Below are positions 2,399 through 38,580 of a stretch of 40,872 bases of DNA, piece after piece. The first letter of the stretch is position 1; the number at the start of each line of letters is the position of its first letter. Position numbers and translations under genes: made by a program. The notes under the pieces were generated by a model. The model searched no databases. It saw only the letters and a list, made by a program, of their open reading frames with translations, and was not told where the DNA came from. The DNA is taken from the NCBI GenBank assembly GCA_019915015.1, contig JAHBBC010000079.1, positions 1-40,872 on the forward strand, read 5' to 3'. Source of the stretch: Auriscalpium vulgare. Taxonomy: Eukaryota; Basidiomycota; Agaricomycetes; Russulales; Auriscalpiaceae.

Positions 2399-3615
2399 GA
2401 TTGTTAGCGCTGTGGTACTGACGTCAGTGAGACTCAAGTCAGGGTTGACATTTCCACTGGGCAGGATATTTATATGCACTTACAGTGGCTGGAGGAAGAG
2501 GCACAGATGGAACTGCGGCGCCCACGCGGGAACGATACGCTCGTGACGAAATAAGAGAACCGCGAAGTCCCCGCGAGGTAGGTATTGAAGGTTAGGTGGC
2601 TTGGGAAGGATCAGAAGGCGCGCCGCTGATGAGGTACGTGGGCTGAGAGGGTGTGGCCTGAGATAGCCGGCGAAAGCGACTTATAGGTACTACCGCTCCC
2701 CGGGCATGTGCGGCAGTAATGATGATCACAACTGTGCGAAATCCTGACCGCGGTCAAATATCAAGAGTGATGTGGGCGGACGCGCACTGCCAGTCCGAGT
2801 CAGGCGCGCGCGCCAAGTGTGTAGAGAAGGTGGGAGCCATTGCTGGGGACCTCGCCCACAAGTCAAGCAAATCAAATGCTGAGATGAGAGCGGTGGAACA
2901 GGGTTTCACCGTCAGCAGTCCCGTAAGACGTGTTGGTGGTGGGACGAGGTGGGACGGCACAAAGAATGCAACGCGCCAAAATCGTGCCTGAGATCGATCT
3001 AACTCCGCTGAGGGACGTGGATTCGCCCGTAGATTAGTCTTCACTTACAACCCTAGAAAGTCCACATCGGGACGCTAGCAACCTACGTCGCCGACCGGAT
3101 TATTGGGAGTCGGAACACCAATGCAGCGCCAGGTACGCACCTTCGTTTCTGAAATACTCCTGCGAACGATAATGCCACTGTACGCCTGGGAGTTATACAG
3201 CAATCCATGGATGTCTTGCACTGTTGCCACAACATAGATCGCCGAAGAACGTCTGTGTCAACGTCCGCAAGGCAATGTCGAACTGCACTTCGCACGGCCA
3301 ACAAGCTAGATACTGCCGCACATCGGATTCACATGGAAATTGCATGCGAGCGGTGAATAAAAAGAGCCGGAGACATCTTAGCTGTCATGCAGGACATCAC
3401 CGTCGGGAGCTAGAGTCTATCCCCGGTGATAGGGACACAAAAATGCGGTGGAGGGTGATCCTACTAGTAAGTTTGCGTGACGGTCGTTCAAGCAACGGGG
3501 GTGCGAGACGGGCGGACCCATTCAAAGCCTGAAATGGAAATCAAGTGATGGAGAACCTCTGAGTGGACATCTCAAGCGTCAGGACTCGGGGGTACTGTAT
3601 CACTTACATCTGCAC
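2399..3615. other. intergenic region upstream of the methyltransferase, no gene recognised
   Basis: Only short open frames on both strands with no domain or exon pattern that I recognise. The first few hundred bases should hold the promoter and 5' untranslated region of the minus-strand methyltransferase. The region ends at the 8-bp target-site duplication of the transposon. Confidence 0.45.
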
Positions 3616-3623
3616 AGTTGACT
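3616..3623. repeat. target-site duplication, left copy
   Basis: The octamer AGTTGACT directly precedes the left terminal inverted repeat. The same octamer, in the same orientation, directly follows the right end at 10486-10493. An 8-bp duplication is what P elements, hAT elements and some fungal DNA transposons make on insertion. Confidence 0.85.
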
Positions 3624-3655
3624 AGGACCCCCGTAACTCATGCCAGGGGTATGAT
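3624..3655 (+). repeat. left terminal inverted repeat (32 bp)
   Basis: Begins AGGACCCCCG and ends GGGGTATGAT. Its reverse complement matches 10454-10485 except at one position, where CATGCC here corresponds to CACGCC in the other end. Confidence 0.9.
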
Positions 3656-3862
3656 CCGCCAAACGGGGTCAACTACCATTTTTTTTTGCGGCTCGCGACC
3701 CCTTCCAGCTACCATTCGCCCCTCAGACCTCCGTTTGGGGTCCGTAGCTACCACGGATAGGATCATAGCTTCAAAAAAATCGTAGTTTATTGTAAAAAGC
3801 TCCGCTTTGCGTGCAGGCAGGAGGGGATGTACTACGGATGCGCAGAGGCCTGTCAAACTGAC

Positions 3863-6800
3863 CTATTCATCTGGTTCATCGTCACCCGCCTGTTCAAGAC
3901 CCGCCTTGACCCTCCCACTAAGCTCCTTGATAGCACGAGCGATATTCGCGACGTTCTGCTTGAGGGCGACATAGCACGCGCCATCAGATTTTACCAAAGC
4001 TAGTGTTGAGCCCGAGGTTTGGAGGGGATGGTCGAGGGCATACAGGAAGTAGGACGGTTTCAGGAAGGCGAACCGAGGGATCTTGCTAGGATCGGCGAGG
4101 GAGAATTGGTTGTGTCGGACCGGCTTGAACAGTCTCACAGCGATGTAAGAAAGAGCGGTGATGCGAGACGTGTCCGAAGCCCAACCATGTTTGCCGTTCT
4201 TACCGGCCGACTTCTCGTACATGGTCAGGACTAACCAGCCATCAGCGCATGCCGAGTCATGTTGAAGATTACGACGCACCTTCTGCAAGGCAGATTGCCT
4301 CATCAACAAGAACCAAGCCATAAGAAGGCGGCATGCCAGTGTGAGCAGCGTAGAGGTGTTTGAGCGGCGTGACATTGGCCGAGTGTGCGACCTTGGGGAC
4401 GTGATGCTTTGCGAAGATCGCTGCTCGCCTCCGTTCAGCCTGGCGGACGTCAATACCATGTATGTGCACTCATACAACACTAGCAGACGCACCTGATACG
4501 ATGCATTTGCAGCGACCTCAGCCGCGTTTGCAGCCGTCCCTGGTGCAGGAGCAACAGCTTCTTCGCCGTTGATTGCTCCGTCTCGACCGCCCGCAGCTGG
4601 CTGCCGCCAGCGCATCGACCGACCCGCGCCCGTGGTAACACCGCGCTCTGTAACACCGCGCTCTTCTTGACGCTTGAGAACATCCTTGACCAACTGCAGA
4701 AGGCGTTTTTTCTCGGAGAGCGTTGACTGGGCGGGTGGACCGTTATCAGAGGAAGGTGGTAGATCTTCCGAGGACTTGAAGGCCTTTGTTCGGACACCTT
4801 TCTCAGCCTGTCTGGTATGATGCGACCGGCGGATGACTGCGAGCTGTTCGAGATCGAATTCAGCAGAGATCACTGTGTCCTGGAAGGTCCTGCGCTCGTC
4901 GGGGTCGGACACAGCAGGGAGCGACTGGGCGAGGATCTTCCCTATATGTGCAGCGTCTTTGCGTGTTGCATCCGCTGTGTCTTCAGGCAATTGCAGTCTA
5001 GTAATGTGAGGGTTAGACTCTGTAAGATCTATCGGCGGTGAGAGGAGGACAAAACACGAACATGTCGACAGTGCTCTGGACGCATAAGGCAGCTGCTGCG
5101 CAAGTCAAATCGTTCAACTGCTGGTCGAAGACCGCACCAACTCCGTCTGCATTCTCTGCCTTCTTCAACCCATTTTCAATCTGGAGCATCTCGGGCTCGT
5201 CTTCGTCCATCTCAGGACCCTCGTCTTCGGAATCGGACTGGCCATAGATTGCATCCCAAGCCTCCTGCGAATACCAACTCGACAACGATGGGAATGCGCG
5301 AACACGGTGAGCTTGATTCTGCAATTTGTCCAGAAAATCCGGGTCTAGTACGAGAGCGTCCCACAGATTCGCTGCCTCCGAATGGGCCTGTTGTGTTGCT
5401 TGCTCAATGTCGTGATCAGAAGGGAATGTGGAGAGGGCATGGAGGTCGAGATGTCGATTGTCGGTATAGGTATGATTGTATCCATTCGCTCTTTCCTTGC
5501 CCTCAGATGTCTTTGCAAGGAAGAGATGCTCGCGCAAGCGGACTGAGAGCTTCGGAATCATATGATAGAAGTCTTGCAAGGTGAAGTCCTTCACAAGCTG
5601 TCGACAAATGCCGAAGACATGCTCACAGACTTCGGTTGATAGAAGCCAGGGCAGCAATGGGTATCTGCCGTCGAGGTGGTCCCGATAGATGATCACCAAC
5701 TGAAGGAAACCAACGACTAGGAAGTTTGTGATGTCGCGTGCCTCGGGAGATATGAAGTGTTGAGCTTTTCGGTAGCCCGCGATGTCCATGAAGTCGGTCC
5801 ACATTTCCATGAAGAAGTGCGCACGCAGCACCATGCGAACACGTTCGATAATTGGGATCGATCGATTCTGGTATGCATCCACGAGCTCTCCAAACACAAA
5901 GAGGTAGATAATCGAGCCGACCATTTCACGATGCTCGTTGGTGAACCATGCTAGCGTATGACCGGAGAAGAGACGGGTCGCAGCATTGTCGTCTTGTCGA
6001 TCAAGTTTCTCGACATCCCTCCGAAACAATGTCCCTGTTGCTTCAATTGCTGCAAGGCGGAAGTGGCTGTACGACGTCGTATAGCTGCCCAAAGTAAGTA
6101 TCCGGGCACCTGAGAATGCGTTGTTCCGGTACGTCTTGCGCCCATGGTTCGAATCTTGAATGAGTGCGACAGGCTGTCGCCCTGCGCCGATGAGAGGAAT
6201 GTGGAGGTTGATGTCACGATGTGAGCGAATAGGGTGCCTGAGGGTGTAGTCAATGTACGCAACGGCGTGAGCGACCAGGAGACGTTGAAGGGAGCGCTCG
6301 ACAGCCGTGCCGTCTGCGGCGTAGGATACAACGTTGATCTTGCGGGAGAGAAGGCCATTCAATATTAATTCCAGGTGGACGAACAGTTGCTCCGCCGAGT
6401 TTGACTCTGAGATAGGGAGCGCCGCAACGACGATAGTCGGAACGCCGGGAAGAGGGATCTGGAGGGTCCATACGCGTATCTGGCATGTGTCGGTGAGCTG
6501 CATGCCTCCGAAGTATTCGTAGAACTCATACCTTCTTAGCCTTCTCGATCTTCCTGGTGCGGATGAGGGCATCGAGTGTGTTGATGTCGCTCACGACGAC
6601 GGGATCGCCAGGACTCCCTAGAAGCACGTAGCACTTTCGTATTGGGTCCCAGTGAGGCCTCAAAGACTCTAGCAGCTTCGTATCATCACATGCGAGGCCA
6701 ACGGGACCCACAAGGTAGTCCAATGATTTCAGCCGTTCGTAGATAAATTCAAATGTTGCCTCTGTGATGCCGATGGGAAACTGCACTTCGTGCGCACGAC

Positions 6801-9800
6801 GTTTCCTTCGGGTCATTTATCAGTCAATTGTATCAATGCAATCTTGTAAACACTGACTGGAGTGTCCGTTCTGCGGGTACGGGTAGCACATTCATCATGG
6901 ATTCATATGCTCGCGGGCTTAAGACGTGGATAATTTGCGCCCACTCCAATGTCATGGCTGAATATCGCATGCCGTTCAAAGGGACACCTCGTTCTTCTAA
7001 ATCTTTCTTCTTGACGAGATCGTTCATCAAGGCGACAAACAAGGAATTGCCATGCTTGCCCTCGATAACGCCTCTTGCGAAGACTAGGCATGCACTATGA
7101 GGGTTCTGTGCAGACAATGATCAGAAGCTGTAACGTGGGGATACTATGAACTTGAAGCTACTGACATCTTCGTATGCCTCCAGAAGAGGTGCAAGGTCGG
7201 GATGAGTAAGAGCATATCGATGGAGGGCCTGTATGTCGTCTTTCTGAGCATGATTGGGGGTGAAGCGGCGATTCTTAGGCTCGGGGACTGGCTTGCGAGT
7301 CGCATTCTGGAATACGTGGACATGCAGCAGAGCGAGGCAGTTGACACAAGTAACATCCTCAGTTGACTCTTCCGGCACCCTTACAGTGCGAAGACAATCT
7401 GTCGCAAGGACATGAAGGGGAGGCGACCGATAGTTCTTCCACTGCCACCGATGCTCTTGCTCCGTGTCGACTACTTGCTTTCTGGCCTTATCCAACGAAC
7501 GATAATCTGGTGCCGAATACAACTCTAACGCCAAATCGGCGAGGGAAGGCCCGCCGCCCCCGCCGTATGGTGTGCGCTCCAAATATTGACGCACACGAGC
7601 GTATTTTGCTGCGCGAAGTCCGAAACAAGGACGATCTATCATTCTCGGAGCGGGGGCCTGCGTCGATGAGGTTGATGCCCAGATGTGGCCCAGTGTATGT
7701 GATCGCATTGTGCCCTTGCAAACTTTCTGGTGCTGTTTGAATGCCTTGGTGTGATACGCCCCAGTCATAAGCATGTACTTGTTGCATCGAGAGCATCGGA
7801 CCTTCCGAACATCGTCTAGACAGAACTCGGCCATGTCGTCAAGCGCAAGGATTTTCTCCTTGAATTTGGTATACGCCTTTGAGTTGTCGTCCCTACCGCG
7901 TTTGACGAAGGAATTGGCCAGGCGCGTGCTGATTGCTCCAGACGATGGCCCAACATCAGCGCTTGCGGTGCTTGCAGACACGGTAGCAATGACATCCTTA
8001 TTCTTTCCCTTGGGCGCGAAGAACGGATGAATGGGCCCAGGGACAGTGCGTGTGCGTTTTGCAGGATGGATAGGCGCCTGAGCCTCTGAGTCGTGGTCAG
8101 ATTGAGCGCTTGTTGCTTCACTCGCGCTCGCAGCCGTCTTGTCGTCTGCGCTCGAGCTCCCTTTCCTCCGCCTTTTCAGTAAGCCCCGCGCAGCCTTCAG
8201 TGTCGTCCCAATGGAACTGATGATCTTCTTAGATGCCCTTGACAGTCGACTTCCATCGGATGCGCAATCCTCCGCCTCACTTCCCACCGACGACACCCTT
8301 CTTGACGACATTGACGCAGCATCAGAAGTCCCATTTTCCAAATGGCTTCTCCATTCTGTGATACTGCCAGGCCCATCCTGGTCCAGCATTCCACCACGCG
8401 GAACTGGTGGGAGATCATCGTCGACAGTGGATGGAGAGAGCAACGACCGGCCGTATGCGCAGCTGGTATCGGTGGTATCGGGCATAGGTATGTCGTCGCA
8501 GTCGCTGTCATAGCCACTAGCAGATGCAAGTACTGAATATGATGATGTAGGAGAAGGTGGCATTGACAGAGGTGGAATTGACGGATCGTATTTGCTGCCT
8601 TCGTCCATGTCTCCGCGTCGCCCCATCTGCTTTTCTTCCACCTCTGGACTGAATCCTTCAAGTAGACATTCAGCATCTCTGGTCGACTCGCCGGGTTCGG
8701 AAGCTTGAGGATTTAGAAGGTGGGCCATCCCGCGAGGGATATGATGCGCAACAGGCTCATCGCGTCCGGCGCCGCCTGTCACAGCATCAGACCGTCGCTG
8801 ATGACTTGATACCTGCGCAGAGCACCTGAGTATCGTCGTCCTCATGTCGCTAATGAGCAAAATATAGCGTACCGATTGAATATGGTCGGCAGCGAGCCTC
8901 TCGAACCACGCCAACCGTTCGACGTGGCGCCTTGAATCATCCCAAAGCTGCCAGCCCAGTGTTTCGTGTGCGACCGCATTCACGGCGATCACGCCACACG
9001 ATACGTGATCTGTCTGTCTCGCTGTCGTAAGCGACTGTCCCTCCCACTTGTACTCAATGCCGAATTTGACACGCGTCCACCAGAGCAATTTCTTCTCGAT
9101 GTCTTTAGGCAGGCGCAGTCCCTGATGGTAAAGGCCGTCGCCTTGTTTCACAGGAATGGTAAGATTGCATTCCCATTGGCGACATAGTAACGTACTCACC
9201 ATAGGATATTGTTTCCGCTTGACCGTCGATCTTCACGACAACAAAATGCTTGTATTTGGCGAGGAAAACAGGGAAGAGGAGTACCTTCCTATGGGTGCGC
9301 AGATCGTCTTCAATTCTCTTGAGGTAACGAGGTGAGTCGGGGAACAGGTCTTCTATTACTGTGATCTTTGAAATTGCATTCCAGAACTCGTGTCCGGCGA
9401 TCTCGAAGTTGTTGGCAATTCCTGGCGTGCTCCGAACGCGGCTTCTCAACCACATGAGCATCATGTCAACGATGGTGTCGGTGAGAAGGCCGTCTGATAA
9501 CAGCGGAGCAAGGGCTGATGTTGTCGTAAATGTGGCGGCACCGGGTATCATGAGTTGCTGGCGCCAGGGAAGCGAGTGGATAAGAGCAACAGTGCGTTCG
9601 CTTTCCATAGAACCGTCAGCGACTTGTAGCAGCCACCGCACGCTCGCCGTCCACGTCTCCTGTGCCAGGAGGACCGTACGCATCCGTTGCCAGTAAGTGA
9701 TCATCCACAGCGGGGATGCACCACTTGCATATCGTGGGTCCATGATTGATTGTGCGCCATCCAGGATGGCCTGCGGTGCGAGTGCAGCAAGCTTGTCCAC

Positions 9801-10127
9801 GAAGGCATCCGTAGGAAGGCTTCGTGATTTTGTAAGTGTGGTTATGGGGAAGACTGCCACGTCATGGCTAAAAACAGCTTTGGTTGAGGGGTGTATGAGC
9901 TGCTGATCGCGACGAGGGAGTGGTGTAGATACGAAGGAATGAACATCCTCGGTGCCGCTGGGGAGCAAAGAAGTCTCGGGAGCGTTGGGAATCCTGAGGA
10001 GCTGCTCGATGTAGGCCAGCAGCTCCGGCGGTGGGTTCTGGGGATAGCTTTTGCCTTGCGAGATCCATAATTCGGGACGGAACATAGGTATTTCATCGTC
10101 GTTGTAGATTGTGATGGACTCATCCAT
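3863..10127 (-). CDS. giant transposon protein: Ulp1/C48-like cysteine peptidase - C2HC zinc finger - P-element-like transposase
   Basis: Exons 10127-9200, 9141-7166, 7105-6858, 6805-6532, 6479-5062, 4997-4493, 4439-4280 and 4230-3863 join in phase into 1,959 codons including the stop. I chose the ATG of MDESITIYNDDE because the frame closes upstream. Residues about 290-360 form a Ulp1-type peptidase core: His294 in KYKHFVVVKID, Asp311 in SYGDGL, Gln352 and Cys358 in RQTDHVSCGV. The H-to-D (17) and Q-to-C (6) spacings equal those of yeast Ulp1. An acidic, Ser-rich linker with basic patches follows. A C-x2-C-x17-H-x3-C finger lies near residue 757 (RCSRCNKYM...HQKVC). The transposase half has SPRAYESMMNVLPVPAERTLQ-type text, GPVGLACDDTKL, VVSYAADGT (Asp1198), QDSNHGRKTYRNN (Asp1251, His1254) and STEVCEHVFG (Glu1428), resembling the D-DxxH-E arrangement of P elements. 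The peptidase and finger share one uninterrupted frame across 9141-7166. A possible 60-nt intron at 8813-8872 is a multiple of three without a stop. No frame break was found. Confidence 0.85.
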
Positions 10128-10453
10128 TGGCACGATGCCGGGATGGCTGCGAGGGTGATGCGCTGCACAGAAGAAGCAGGTTCGGTCCGAGGCGTTGTCG
10201 TAGAATGTCGTACGCAGCAGGCCACGTAAATTTCTACCTAATGTCTCAACTTGTACGAATTATACCGGTAATTATGGGGTCAAAATCTTCTGCCGCCAGT
10301 ACTTAGTCCAACTACCTCTGTGATCAGACATCGGTTCACCGCGCCCCTAACTACCACCATCAGGATCATACTTTTGCCCCAAATTCTAGCCCCCAGCTAC
10401 CTCAGACCCCTCAGAGCTTCCGGCGCAAAGCGCCGTCTAGCTACCGTGCGAAA

Positions 10454-10485
10454 ATCATACCCCTGGCGTGAGTTACGGGGGTCCT
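10454..10485 (-). repeat. right terminal inverted repeat (32 bp)
   Basis: Inverted partner of 3624-3655 with a single mismatch. It marks the outer end of the transposon and lies about 330 bp upstream of the gene start, so it probably overlaps or abuts the element's promoter. Confidence 0.9.
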
Positions 10486-10493
10486 AGTTGACT
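10486..10493. repeat. target-site duplication, right copy
   Basis: AGTTGACT, identical and in direct orientation to 3616-3623, directly after the last base of the right inverted repeat. Confidence 0.85.
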
Positions 10494-10594
10494 GCGAAAA
10501 CGCCGCGCGAACCAGTGTCCATTCCGGCCCGTGGTGCCGATGCGTCCTGCTCGGAGTCAAGCCGTCCGACCGGTTACCGGCCGGTTACCACCGG

Positions 10595-11284
10595 TACTAT
10601 CGTTGCCCCAGAGTTGAACGGGTTTTCGCTGTTTCGCCCGTAGATGCTTCGTTATGCTGCTTTTTCTCATAAAACTTTCACAAATGTATGAAAATTGATC
10701 TCAGCTATCTTATTCTTGTTTTTTTCGGATTTTTAGCTAGACATATTCTGTCCTCGGGGAGCTCCCGGGAAGGACACTCGAAATTCAAGGGGAGATGAAC
10801 TAATTCGCCGAGCATCAGTCACACAAAGTCACCGTCGGCACGGCACGGCACAGCCAAGCACGTTGTCACGGACCCGTGCAGGAAGGGAGGTAGCTGAAGG
10901 AGCCTTAATTTGTCACTCCATCGTAGTGGTTGACCCTCCACCTACATCTCATCGTCTGTAGCTCGAAATACTACCGATTGCGTCCCGGAGAATTACCCAG
11001 CGCTTTACCAAGTATAAAAAATCATAAGGTTCAATTTTTACGGGGCGCAGTGCTCGCACTGTCTCACACTTTTGTGGATATACAGTAGGTCTTCAGACAC
11101 CCAAACACCCTTTCAGCAACTGTGCACACTCTCGACATCCCCTGAGCAGCAAAAACATCCAAAACTCATTCTGTAGATTGGAACACAAGTGCTTGAATAT
11201 TTTGAGAGGTGTGGCTCAAGTGGTGCAAGTGATATTCAAGATGTTCATATCTGGGGCCCGTTCAACTCTGGGGCAACGATAGTA
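10595..11284. mobile_element. short non-autonomous inverted-repeat element (MITE-like), about 690 bp, TA duplication
   Basis: The ends are a perfect 28-bp inverted repeat: 10595-10622 begins TACTATCGTTGCCCCAGAG and 11257-11284 is its exact reverse complement. The outermost TA at each end fits a TA target-site duplication, which leaves a 26-bp repeat starting CTATCGTTGC. A TA target is the hallmark of Tc1/mariner-like elements and some others. The interior has no open frame of note and is partly AT-rich (around 10650-10740), so any transposition would need a transposase supplied elsewhere. It is unrelated in sequence to the larger transposon whose right end is about 110 bp away. Confidence 0.8.
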
Positions 11285-11760
11285 TCGCGTATCATGGGGA
11301 GTTTGGTCCGCGCTACCCCTTCATGATGCTGTTCTCAGCCAGGTATACACATATTTCTGTTCAGTCTCCCTGGAGGCAGAGTGGAGAGATTCATTTTCGC
11401 CACGTTGGCATAAGATGTACACATGCGCCGTTGAAAGCCTGAGAGTGGCGACAGTATTGGAAATAATATCAGCACAAGGACACTGACAGCGAAGCGGACA
11501 GGAGCGGACAGCGTGTGCAAGGATAGGATAGGATAGCGCATCTTTGTCATTATTGAGACATATATGTAAGACGCGCACTACCACTACCGGAGGGCCGACC
11601 TTCACCGCGTGCGATCTTGAACCTGGGTGAAAGGTCAATTAAGAGGCTTGGTAAACATTTCGCGTACGCACGAGTTGAGAGCCGGCGAGCATGTACTCTT
11701 TGTACACCATGCTATCCTCCTTTACCTCCTTGATTTCCTTATTCCTCGCATCTATGACGC
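11285..11760. other. no gene recognised
   Basis: Open frames of about 70-105 codons on the minus strand lack recognisable features. A short direct repeat of GGATA units lies at about 11520-11535. Part of this stretch is probably the 3' flank of the coiled-coil gene. Confidence 0.4.
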
Positions 11761-15219: not shown

Positions 15220-16592
15220 ATGTTCGACCCACCGAATACTCTATTTTCGGCGTGCTCTTTCCTGGGATTTATCATGTCCATAACACCTCTCTACTGGCAT
15301 TGGGAAGGTATGACGCGGCCCTTTCACACCTGCCTGAGGCTACTAACGCCTCGCTCGAAAGCGGAGAATGCTGGCGCATGTCTCTACATGTTCTGGTGCT
15401 CCATCGCGAACCTCAACCAGTTCATCAACTCGGTCGTGTGGAATAAAAGCGCCATCAACTACGCACCCGTTTGGTGTGACATCTGTGAGCTTTGTTTCTT
15501 CGTTTGACTTGCGCCGGCTGCTCAACGAGACATACTGGAAGCTATGAGGTTACTCATTGCAGGCAACGTTTCCCTTATTTGCGCCAGCCTGTGTATGACG
15601 CGCCGCCTTTACTCCGTTGCGAGCTACGCCAAGTACAACAAGCGCCGGGAACTCACCATAGACCTTTCCATCGGGCTAGGCATACCTGTGCTTGCAATGA
15701 TACTGAGTGAGAATGACACCAGATGTTCCCAGAGATTCAGGCTAATGTGCTTTAGCGTACATCGTGCAGGGCCATCGTTTCGACATCCTCGAAGAAATTG
15801 GGTGCTTTTTCTCTCTCGTCAATCGGCCGCCCACCTACCCACTCTTTTATGCCTGGCCCATAGTTCTCGGCCTCGTCTCTGGCGGCTTCGGAGGTGCGCG
15901 TTCAAGAGAATCACCCTGCGACGCTTCCTGACTTACTTTCTCCCCATCCAGTCGCGACTATCTACCGGGTGTTGCTCCGCCACCACGGCCTGCGCGGCGT
16001 TGCCAACTACGACGACAACTTCTCCCGCCACATCCGCGTGATGATCCTCTCGTGCACCGATGTGCTCTGCACGGTGCCCCTGTCCGTCTACTTCATGTAT
16101 CTGGATCTGCAGGGCGTCACCCCGTGGGTGAGCTGGAGCGACGTGCATGCCGACTTCTCCGCCGTTTGGGAAATTCCGTCGGTGTTGTGGAAGGCCTGGC
16201 CGCACAGCTCGGCCACTCAGCTGTCCCGGTGGTCGAACTTCTTTTGTGCGCTGTTGTTTTTTGCGATCTTCGGTACGGGCGAGGAGGCGTTCCGCCACTA
16301 TCGTGCGTTTTTCCGGGCCGTCGGGACACGATTGGGGAGGGCGGGCGCTGGTGTGGTGCGCCGACGCGTCAGGTGCGTCTCCACGTCAAGTGAGAGGGAT
16401 ACGACTGACGCGCTGTGCCTCAGGAAAGCGCCGCCTGCGTTGCCTATCGCAGTCGATATCACCAAGCCTCATCCACACGTCACTTTCGTGGACATTGGAA
16501 GCACCGGTTCTCTCACCTCGACTCTCTCAAGCGACTCTAAACCAGAGTCGAGCACTACCGTCCAGAAGCTTGACTTAGTGCGATTTTTCTGA
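15220..16592 (+). CDS. STE3: STE3-type G-protein-coupled pheromone receptor
   Basis: Seven-transmembrane receptor for farnesylated mating pheromones, or a non-mating paralogue, at the plasma membrane. Exons: 15220-15307, 15362-15484, 15542-15706, 15756-15893 and 15952-16592. The protein is 384 residues, or 367 if 16372-16422 is also an intron. Family text is clear: ACSFLGFIMSITPLYWHWE (TM1), ACLYMFWCSIANLNQFINSV (TM2), YAPVWCDI, SLCMTRRLY, IDLSIGLGIPVLAM, YIVQGHRFDILEEIGC, the hydrophobic TM5 region and TPWVSWSDVH. The first intron (15308-15361) has a perfect TACTAAC branch point and is 54 nt without a stop, so a naive open frame reads through it and inserts 18 spurious residues. The cytoplasmic tail is fairly short and Ser/Thr-rich. 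The gene looks intact. Without a neighbouring pheromone gene I cannot tell a B mating-type receptor from the non-mating STE3 paralogues common in Agaricomycetes. Confidence 0.92.
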
Positions 16593-27286: not shown

Positions 27287-28101
27287 TCACAGAACGTCCA
27301 TGTATTCCCTGCATCTCTCCCAAAGACGGGCCCACCGCCCGCCGCTCCATTGACGCATGCGTGCCCATCCGTCGTGCGGCGCAACGCGCTCAACCCATAT
27401 GAGGACCCCGCAGACGGCGAAGTCGGCGTAGGTCAACTCACGCCCCATCGCCACAACCCCGTCACCATCTGATCCCACATTCTTGTCGAGCATCGCCGCA
27501 AGCAAATCCAGTTTCTCTTTCACGGCAACCCAAGCCTGTTCGCGCTGCGGGCCGGGAGTCAAGTATCCCGGAAGGGATGCGGGTGGGGGGCCGCGGAATT
27601 GCGCCTGAACATGAGCGGGCAACCGCATGTGTGTAAGGGGAACCATGACGGCTAGGAGCGGTTGGAGGACAATGTCGTGGAGGTATTGGACAAATACGGA
27701 TTGCATGGCCTTCGAGCCATCGGGAAAAATAGTCCGCGCCGGGAAGGCAGCCTCAAGGTATTCGGCAATGGTAGAGGCGTTGGTCAGGACAATTGGACGT
27801 CCAGATGAGTGTTGGGGAACCACGATGGCGGGTAACGCGTAGAGTGGCCGGCCGTCACGGCTGATAGCCGTCGGGGGTGCGTTTATAGAACGCAGCACCC
27901 GTTCTACGTCGGAAAACTCGACCCATACAGTACGGTATGGGAGCCGCTTATAATTCAGGATTAATCTGCGGAATGGGCAGGTTCAGAATGTGCATGCGAA
28001 GTCGATGAGTTATACGCGCACCTTATCCGCCATATATTCGGGGACCAGGCCTCGGGAGTCAGGGAAGGGACATCATAGAGGGTGATGCTAGGCGGTGGCA
28101 T
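27287..28101 (-). CDS. glutathione S-transferase, LigE/etherase-related fungal class
   Basis: Conjugates or reduces small molecules with glutathione in the cytosol. In wood-decay fungi this class has been linked to lignin-derived phenolics and extractives (family knowledge). Two exons join in phase to 252 residues: 28101-28022 and 27965-27287. The N-terminal thioredoxin-like domain reads MPPPSITLYDVPSLTPEAWS then PNIWRIRLILNYKRLPYRTV, the WSPN-type active-site region of LigE-related enzymes where Ser is the catalytic residue. WVEFSDVE, YALPAIV and the glutathione-binding NASTIAEYLEAAFP follow. The all-helical C-terminal domain includes LTYADFAVCGVLIWVERV, a typical C-terminal-domain helix. 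The length is normal for the class and the gene looks intact. Confidence 0.88.
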
Positions 28102-34977: not shown

Positions 34978-36735
34978 ATGCTCAAATCACTGCTGAAACG
35001 CCTTTTGAAGAGACTACGCAAAATTGAAGGTAGGCATGCAACAACGAGTGTCAACCTGCGTTGATCTCAAATTCTGGCTGACAGTGGCTGGAACTACAGG
35101 GTCCCCGTTAAAGCCCGACCCTCATATCACCACCAACAACGTCGACCACGTCTCCCATCTCCCCCCAGAAGTGCTCGCGCGCATCTTCGCCATCCTAGGG
35201 CACCTAGACGCACTCAGAACAACGCGTTGGGGCAACGCAAAGCTCGCGCACCTCGGCTGGGTGGTCGTCACGCATGTATGCCGTCGCTGGCGGCGCGTCG
35301 CCCTTGAGCACGCCTTGCTATGGCGTTGCATCCCCTATCCGCCAATCACCGAGTGGACATTCCAGTTCATCGCGCGCTCTGGAGATGCTCCGCTGGTGCT
35401 CACTTTCGGGCACGTAAATTCGCCGTCGCTGGAGCTGCTGAGGCAGCAGACCCTTGGCAGAGTAGGGGAGATCCACCTCTTCGACAACGAGGCGATAGCA
35501 CATGTGTCAAGCCTGGTGGAGGGGCCGACAAATTCCCAACTTCTTGCTGGGTCACAGTTGGAGGTACTCGAAATCTTTGTCGATCATAGTCCGGAGTTGA
35601 AGTATAGCATCGGGTGGACACACGTGGAGGGTCAAAAGATCCTACCAGGCGATTTCCTCATGGTCTTAAATGCGCCGCTGCGCCGCATCTCCCTGACCGG
35701 ATGCCGACTGCCGTGGACGTCCCCCCTTCTTCGCAACCTAACAACGCTTGAAATCGACGGGGCCCTGTTGCCGCATCAGCAGCGTGAGTTCGACGCAAAG
35801 TACGGGCCGCTCGTGGGGTTGCTGGAAATGCTCGAAGCGAACCCCGAGTTGGAGCACCTCCTGCTCGTTGACTGTCTTCCCCCATCATCCCCTCCGATCA
35901 CATCGCCACCCTTCCGCGCCTACAAAGCATCAAACTTGGGGGGTCCATCGTCGCATGTGCGGAAGTCATGCAGCACGTCACCATCCCATCCTCCGCTCGC
36001 ACGCAATTTTTGTGTCACTACGACGAGAAGAACGCATCGCATGCGCCGCTCCTCCGTTTCATTGACGAGCGCTTTGCCCCCTCGGGGACAGGCAAGTCCC
36101 CGAAGGTGCGCACGCTCATGGTCAAATGTGGAGGGATATACTCCCCCGTCAGCGTGCTCGGTTGGGAGGCTTCTTTCATGCTCCCTGGAGACTCCAGGCG
36201 CCATGACCGCTTTGGACCTCCGGACGTAGACCTCACTTTCCCCACGGAGGAGGACCCGCGCCAGCTGAAGGAAATGTGCGACGCGCTGCATCTGGACGAG
36301 CTCCAGGCTGTTTACATTGACTTCGCCTACAACCTCTCCATACCCGGATTATGGCCGGCGTTATTTGGCGGGTGTGCGTCTGTGCGTTTTGCGCAACTGG
36401 AAGCGTCGCATGGTATGGCTGTGTCGTTTTGCGAGGCATTTGTCAAGCCCTCAGTCAACGATGGCGCAAGTCGGGATTTGTTTCCCGAGTTGAACGCACT
36501 TGCTCTGCGCTTCAGCGATACGGTCGTCGATTACTTCTCCCCAAGCTTGAAGAGCTCCTACAGTGACCTGCCGCATGTAACGTTCGCAGAGAAGCTGAAA
36601 CAACGGGCGGACAGGACGCCGGGCTTCATCACACTGTACTTGCAGTATCGGGGAGTGCGCACCTCATTCTTACCCACTATTGCACAGGAACTTTCCATAC
36701 TTCACCCAACTGTTACAGTGATACCGAGCTCTTGA
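34978..36735 (+). CDS. F-box protein (agaricomycete type), one-base frame break
   Basis: Probable SCF ubiquitin-ligase adaptor. Exon 1 (34978-35029) encodes the basic MLKSLLKRLLKRLRKIE and joins in phase to exon 2 at 35085 (VAGTTGSPLKPDPH). The F-box is HLPPEVLARIFAILGHLD then LGWVVVTHVCRRWRRVALEH and ALLWRCIP, a very common mushroom variant. Leucine-rich text follows (LEVLEIFVDHSPEL, LRRISLTGCRLPW, LEHLLLVDCLP). At the run of five Cs at 35879-35883 the reading frame must shift: before it the protein reads LLLVDCLP, after it IIPSDHIATLPRLQ continues the same kind of protein in another frame to a stop at 36735. One extra C would restore a single frame. This is either a sequencing error or a recent inactivating deletion. 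Confidence 0.75.
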
Positions 36736-38254: not shown

Positions 38255-38580
38255 ACTGGGCCGCCCCCGCCCGCTCGCCCGTGCCCCCGCGCTCCGCTCG
38301 TCCCCGCCGTCCCCGCCGTCCTGCTCGTGCTAGCCATCCTGCTCGACCTGCTCACCTGCTTGACCTGCTCGACCCGCTCAGCTACTTGCCCATGCCCCGT
38401 GCTCGTCCCCGCCGTCCTGCTCGTGCCAGCCGACCTGCTCGACCTGCTCGACCCGCTCAGCCACTCGCCCGTGCCCCGCGCTCCTGCTCGTCCCCGCCGT
38501 CCTGCTCGTCCCCGCCGTCCTACTCGTCCCCACCGTCCTGCTCGTCCCTGCCACCCTGATCATCCCTACATCGGCCGCTC
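38255..38580. repeat. GC-rich minisatellite, pyrimidine-strand repeats
   Basis: Strongly C/T-biased on the plus strand. The basic unit is about 18 bp, CTGCTCGTCCCCGCCGTC, seen in near-perfect tandem at about 38482-38553. A higher-order unit of roughly 110-120 bp with CTGCTCGACCTGCTCGACC and CGCTCAGC is repeated about twice between 38300 and 38480. The open frames crossing it are repeat artefacts rich in Pro, Arg, Ala or Leu. Confidence 0.85.

Follow-up and report, generated by a model that had tools for sequence, protein, structure and literature searches.

The window analysed here, the whole 40,872-nucleotide contig JAHBBC010000079.1 (C79) from the 51.6-Mb, 96-contig assembly of the basidiomycete Auriscalpium vulgare, carries a 6,862-bp DNA transposon of the P superfamily that is present in the genome in dozens of near-identical copies. 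On balance we favour the reading that its gene encodes one polypeptide in which a predicted Ulp1/SENP-type protease module is joined to a P-type transposase, and that this protease takes SUMO off proteins in the surroundings of the transposition complex. Few DNA transposons have been studied as closely as P elements, and SUMO is known for roles in transposon silencing and in DNA repair. A P-type transposase with its own predicted SUMO protease would make the idea that transposons fight or use the host SUMO system open to test, given the base-identical 6.9-kb copies and the absence of the element from the other allele at the window site.

A recently mobile transposon with dozens of near-identical copies

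The element spans positions 3624-10485, with its gene on the minus strand. It is bounded by 32-bp terminal inverted repeats, the left one (3624-3655, plus strand) reading AGGACCCCCGTAACTCATGCCAGGGGTATGAT and the right one (10454-10485, minus strand) differing from it at a single position (31/32 match), and it is flanked by a perfect 8-bp direct duplication, AGTTGACT, at 3616-3623 and 10486-10493. The inverted-repeat search returned arms of 41 nt that are 93% complementary (3615-3655 and 10454-10494), duplication bases included. Since the bases beyond AGGACCCCCGTAACTCA vary from copy to copy and the ends are constant, the limits can be set at 3624 and 10485. An earlier interpretation made from the letters and open frames of the stretch (hereafter the sequence-only reading) had recognised the repeats, the duplication and the element correctly, but its range of 3616-10493 takes in both duplications.

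Inside the repeats, A[AG]CTACC recurs on the plus strand at 3671, 3707 and 3746 (left subterminal region, 3671-3766, with AGGATCAT at 3759) and at 10310, 10349, 10395 and 10439 (right region, 10310-10445, with AGGATCAT at 10362). Counted on either strand as GGTAG[CT]T, the motif occurs three times in the left 250 bp, four times in the right 300 bp and not once in the middle 6,262 bp. Because Drosophila P transposase binds internal sites at each end of its element, as described in PMC7776569, these repeats are possible candidates for transposase-binding sites.

A six-frame search of the genome, the counts of which are lower bounds, found the complete and identical 525-aa frame of exon 6 at 45 places including the window (among 86 matches) and the identical 309-aa frame of exon 1 at 44 places (among 117 matches). 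Of twenty copies retrieved over their full length, 15 agree with the window at each of the 6,862 bases, while four are shorter by 1 base and one by 4, the first change in each of these five being a base lost from a short run. That 15 of 20 are identical rules out a decayed element; some further copies are interrupted by stops, often TGA. Matches to the element ends with at most two mismatches number 137, which, set against 45 intact exon-6 frames and 41 other rows, leaves little room for a family rich in short derivatives, a judgement that is an estimate given that the 41 rows include several pieces of single copies and that the pairing of ends is partial.

Target-site duplications were surveyed in 51 copies (the window, the 20 whole copies and 30 taken by their ends), of which 48 were readable at both ends and three were unreadable. 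Perfect 8-bp duplications, all different, flank 42 of the 48, and the duplication is thus not due to chance. These sequences have a GC content of 61% and are mildly palindromic: the count is 57 of 168 paired positions, where shuffling gives 43 on average and reached 57 in 36 of 5,000 rounds. In the six mismatched copies (L022, L037, L057, L061, L067 and L089) the 8-bp flanks are unequal, possibly through recombination between copies or assembly joins.

Both flanks of the insertion have a match on C1, the left one at 3102019-3103027 (98%) and the right one at 3103020-3104034 (100%). The two matches overlap by eight bases, and exactly at this site the flanks are joined by one AGTTGACT without element ends; hence one haplotype carries the insertion and the other lacks it. 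For two further insertion sites the assembly contained no second allele, an empty site being seen at one of the three sites tried. The further copies with the same ends and the empty site with a single duplication, both of which the sequence-only reading had suggested looking for, were thus found, and the element is recently mobile.

One predicted polypeptide carries a protease-like module and a transposase

The open frame runs from an ATG at 10127 to a stop at 3863 and was predicted as nine exons encoding 1,938 aa, all intron positions being predictions. A single minus-strand gene open from start to stop had been proposed before, and that part stands, but not the count of eight exons and about 1,958 aa. 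Predicted exon 1 (9200-10127) holds the start codon, the non-catalytic half of the protease module and the Ulp1 catalytic His294 (9248-9246), and exon 2 (8873-9141) the catalytic Asp311 (9139-9137), Gln352 (9016-9014) and Cys358 (8998-8996). Exon 3 (7166-8812) contains the linker, a zinc-finger-like C-x2-C...H...C region (about 7795-7712) and a conserved GGG at residues 817-819 (about 7561-7553); exon 4 (6858-7105) includes a P-element-type helix-turn-helix (6976-6857), and exon 5 (6532-6805) the first catalytic acid, D1071/D1072 (about 6687-6682). The RNase H-fold core with its DxxH motif (D1231 at about 6155-6153, H1234), an insertion domain and the catalytic E1408 (about 5624-5622) follow in exon 6 (5062-6479). 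Exons 7 (4493-4997) and 8 (4280-4439) encode the C-terminal region, and exon 9 (3863-4230) contains the stop codon.

A search for relatives returned 206 proteins, and the counts below come from the best 120 of these. The alignment has 90 rows, namely 88 listed proteins longer than 1,300 aa together with P0121 and P0122, which were the one partial relative given by each search with the N-terminal module. The relatives carry the names of species that we take to be mushroom-forming basidiomycetes (P0081 is without a name); six species that were looked up belong to the Russulales, Cantharellales, Thelephorales, Boletales, Polyporales and Atheliales. Precomputed labels assign PF02902 to 40 and PF12017 to 10 of the 120. 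The alignment is ungapped across predicted junctions 1, 4 and 5 in 65, 84 and 81 of 89 rows, and across junctions 6, 7 and 8 in 63 of 88, 55 of 78 and 50 of 65 rows, respectively; at junction 3 this applies to only 10 of 88 rows, and at junction 2, in the linker, to 0 of 77.

The protease module comprises about 400 aa, its conserved non-catalytic half preceding the catalytic one. The alignment and the models of relatives give it the catalytic His-Asp-Gln-Cys and the fold of the Ulp1/SENP (C48) type; this fold, like that of the transposase, is predicted, the models being of relatives and not of the window's own chain. The active-site residues are kept in 80-86 of the 90 rows. In Pfam scans, PF02902 scores above cut-off in P0011 and P0036 and below it in P0107, and gives no match in the separate exons of the window (seven window frames). 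Yeast Ulp1 and human SENP1-2 (PF02902) share the fold and the catalytic residues with this module but are only about 14-17% identical to it in structural alignments, and here the domain lies inside a transposon protein. The module would act on SUMO or a similar modifier.

In the mechanism that we envisage, the zinc and helix-turn-helix regions would recognise the element ends, and the RNase H chemistry would cut and paste the element, with an insertion staggered by 8 bp. The protease, tethered by the linker, would clear proteins near the transposition complex of SUMO or a similar modifier, its targets in trans being either the transposase or proteins of host repair or silencing. Its function would then be local deSUMOylation.

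Some viral proteases of the Ulp1 clan cut polyproteins at GG-X sites, and the module could perceivably be a maturation protease that releases the transposase from its own N-terminus, as the sequence-only reading had entertained. We consider this unlikely. The linker has a median length of 189 aa and is disordered in the model of a relative; GG occurs in 33 of 82 linkers against a shuffled mean of 39, that is, without excess, and no GG column is common to more than five rows, so cleavage at a linker GG was rejected. The conserved GGG lies outside the linker, downstream of the zinc finger, and cleavage there would part the finger from the core. Moreover, the model of P0122, a protein that itself lacks the full GGG at this position, places the stretch aligned with the GGG between ordered helices (pLDDT blocks of 83 and 92). 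These observations favour action in trans by a tethered protease over release of the transposase.

That the protease and the transposase belong to one chain is indicated by a stop-free frame of 703 codons (7121-9232), which contains both the protease catalytic Cys and the transposase zinc-binding region and thus joins them whatever intron 2 does. Likewise, in 82 of the 90 aligned relatives, annotated as one polypeptide, the same chain includes the protease Cys and is ungapped at the second catalytic Asp. BLAST also covers the protease site in 77 of the 120 listed relatives. Of the 43 that are left, 32 are models of a transposase without the protease, 683-1,278 aa long, which speaks for two genes in one element, merged by gene predictors. 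These short models may, however, be split predictions, and in view of the shared frame and the 82 single chains we regard two separate genes as very unlikely. The union of a Ulp1-like peptidase with a P-like transposase in one polypeptide, as proposed from the sequence, therefore holds as a prediction, and the predicted fusion is widespread in mushroom-forming fungi. Protease and transposase distances rise together (Mantel r 0.85, matched by 0 of 1,000 permutations; 83 rows including the window), a correlation in which shared host phylogeny is not separable from co-inheritance; the two parts agree on the nearest row in only 49 of 83 cases, and in 66 of 83 the row nearest by transposase is one of the three nearest by protease.

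Homologous modules accompany other transposases

The genome search with exon 1 also gave two weak matches, on C13 and C24. At the first locus (L100, 1040-5373), a 406-aa frame homologous to the module precedes, on the same strand, a second frame that contains DDE_1 (PF03184, E 7e-10). Both are enclosed by inverted repeats of 24 bp that match perfectly and have TA on their outer sides (26 nt when the TA is counted), as is the case in pogo/Tc1-like elements. Seven further places match only residues 4-95 of this module frame, at 72-74% identity. At the second locus (L101), a module frame in which C48 passes the cut-off (E 7e-7) is followed by a hAT-like frame. A search with its module gave 95 rows, in which 49 places represent another family that is 38% identical to it over residues 56-447. 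Two of these places, on C18 and C8 (L110, L111, L114 and L115), belong to a 5.3-kb element with ends TAGCGTTGCGGG.../...CCCGCAACACTA; the two copies, read at both ends, have perfect 8-bp duplications, GACAGCGG and GGGCTTTC.

Profiles built from the P-family rows were compared with 785 frames, E values being scaled to 10,000. The module profile matches the frames of L100 (E 2e-55), L101 (9e-51) and L111 (2e-40), and the non-catalytic half alone still does so (8e-28, 1e-20 and 1e-16, respectively); the transposase profile matches only the window. The His, Asp, Gln and Cys are readable in all three modules. In these loci the module and the transposase are consecutive same-strand frames that may or may not be joined in one protein.

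These homologues bear on whether the protease merely rides along and contributes nothing to transposition. A host gene, once captured, can in principle hitch-hike, but here the active site is kept in nearly all aligned rows, whose species represent several orders, and two more kinds of transposon carry homologous modules. This argues for repeated recruitment by other transposase types, which would be difficult to account for without some benefit, and a mere passenger is scarcely credible. The homologous modules in pogo-like and hAT-like elements instead suggest that DNA transposons of this host lineage profit in general from removal of the modifier, and the cassette is likely to be a portable helper against, or alongside, host SUMO control.

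It is quite possible, if short of probable, that a portable cassette of about 400 residues, a SUMO protease by prediction, sits at the N-terminus of P, pogo-like and hAT-like elements, three unrelated superfamilies, in mushroom-forming fungi as a general tool against silencing or for clearing the transpososome, and that two carrier families recently burst in this genome. Several observations call for caution here. The module of the pogo-like L100 has no Pfam match to C48, which passes the cut-off only in L101 among the three (L111 is sub-threshold, E 0.027). The hAT-like transposase frames had no informative match in Pfam, NCBIfam or PDB, and the tentative hAT label of the 5.3-kb family, our own assumption, therefore rests on motifs, the ends and the 8-bp duplications. 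Finally, in a tree of 79 P-family modules and the three others, the hAT-like pair falls with a single long-branched P-family row, P0120, and the pogo-like module is long-branched near the base, which makes the number of captures uncertain.

Placement in the P superfamily and comparison with known elements

The element belongs to the P superfamily, as had been proposed from its sequence. By structural alignment, the predicted RNase H-fold core is like that of P transposase and has an insertion domain (the aligned range, chain 158-565, spans the insertion, the domain that binds GTP in the P superfamily), and the catalytic D1071, D1231, H1234 and E1408 are kept in 89, 86, 87 and 82 of the 90 rows, the non-matching rows being gaps except for one row at D1231; 8-bp duplications and inverted repeats complete the picture. 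Ten relatives were scanned for the PF12017 helix-turn-helix; six of them, five having been chosen as already labelled, exceed its curated cut-off, and the window's own exon 4 stays below it (17.8 bits against 23; E 0.0043). A PDB sequence search with the transposase profile did not find P transposase. That the element is of another superfamily, hAT or KDZ, and merely resembles P is barely conceivable. Its closest fold is not a hAT transposase. The KDZ transposase domain had no match in a comparison confined to Pfam (E up to 1 for window frames, 0.1 for relatives).

With the Drosophila P element and THAP9 (PMC7776569) the element shares, by model and alignment, the 8-bp duplications, terminal repeats, candidate subterminal sites, helix-turn-helix, RNase H core with helical insertion and D-D-E residues. 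It differs in that Pfam scans of seven window frames and ten relatives found no THAP domain, in place of which there are the zinc-finger-like region, the long linker and the Ulp1 module, and in that its terminal 3' base is T and not G as in the Drosophila element. As THAP is limited to animals according to PMC7776569, this is not an animal-type P element, though within the superfamily, to which its transposase adds a fungal branch.

P elements have been described in rust fungi (P-1_MLP, P-2_MLP and P-1_PSt), likewise in Basidiomycota and with 8-bp duplications in the Melampsora elements; the passage on them in PMC3164196 makes no mention of a protease, a comparison by description and not by sequence. 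Elements that encode an Ulp1/C48 or OTU protease beside the transposase or recombinase are also in print, namely Ginger1 (Ulp1 or OTU) and Mutator elements (Ulp1), for whose proteases a role in transposition and a possible link to repair under ubiquitin or SUMO control have been suggested (PMC2836005), and Crypton elements (C48; PMC3212892). Their transposase or recombinase families differ from the present one, and the Ginger1 protease is C-terminal (PMC2836005) whereas here it is N-terminal, after the conserved non-catalytic half. The view that the fusion is undescribed may thus hold for Ulp1 with P, and not for its parts: among the titles and abstract openings given by full-text searches, a scope with most subscription journals and Repbase outside it, none joins Ulp1 to a P transposase, and "P element" and "Ulp1" are both absent from PMC12730594 and PMC9674265.

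Other features of the window

At 15508-16589, two plus-strand frames have matches to STE3, a family of pheromone receptors (E 6e-10 and 9e-26). The contig likely contains or adjoins a predicted mating-type locus of the pheromone/receptor kind, and the assembly of two haplotypes in this region would thereby be explained. Beside the transposon, at about 10590-11289, lies an element of some 0.7 kb with inverted ends of about 30 bp, which has three more copies (89-91%) and is also present in the empty allele. A glutathione S-transferase-like frame occupies 27290-27982 on the minus strand (GST_C_7, E 5e-32) and an F-box-like frame 35009-36226 on the plus strand (E 1e-8). Between 32091 and 34417 a stretch of a little more than 1 kb occurs twice, in pieces that are 78-93% identical, some of them recurring a third time near 37 kb, and a short tandem array follows at 38.3 kb (38282-38561).
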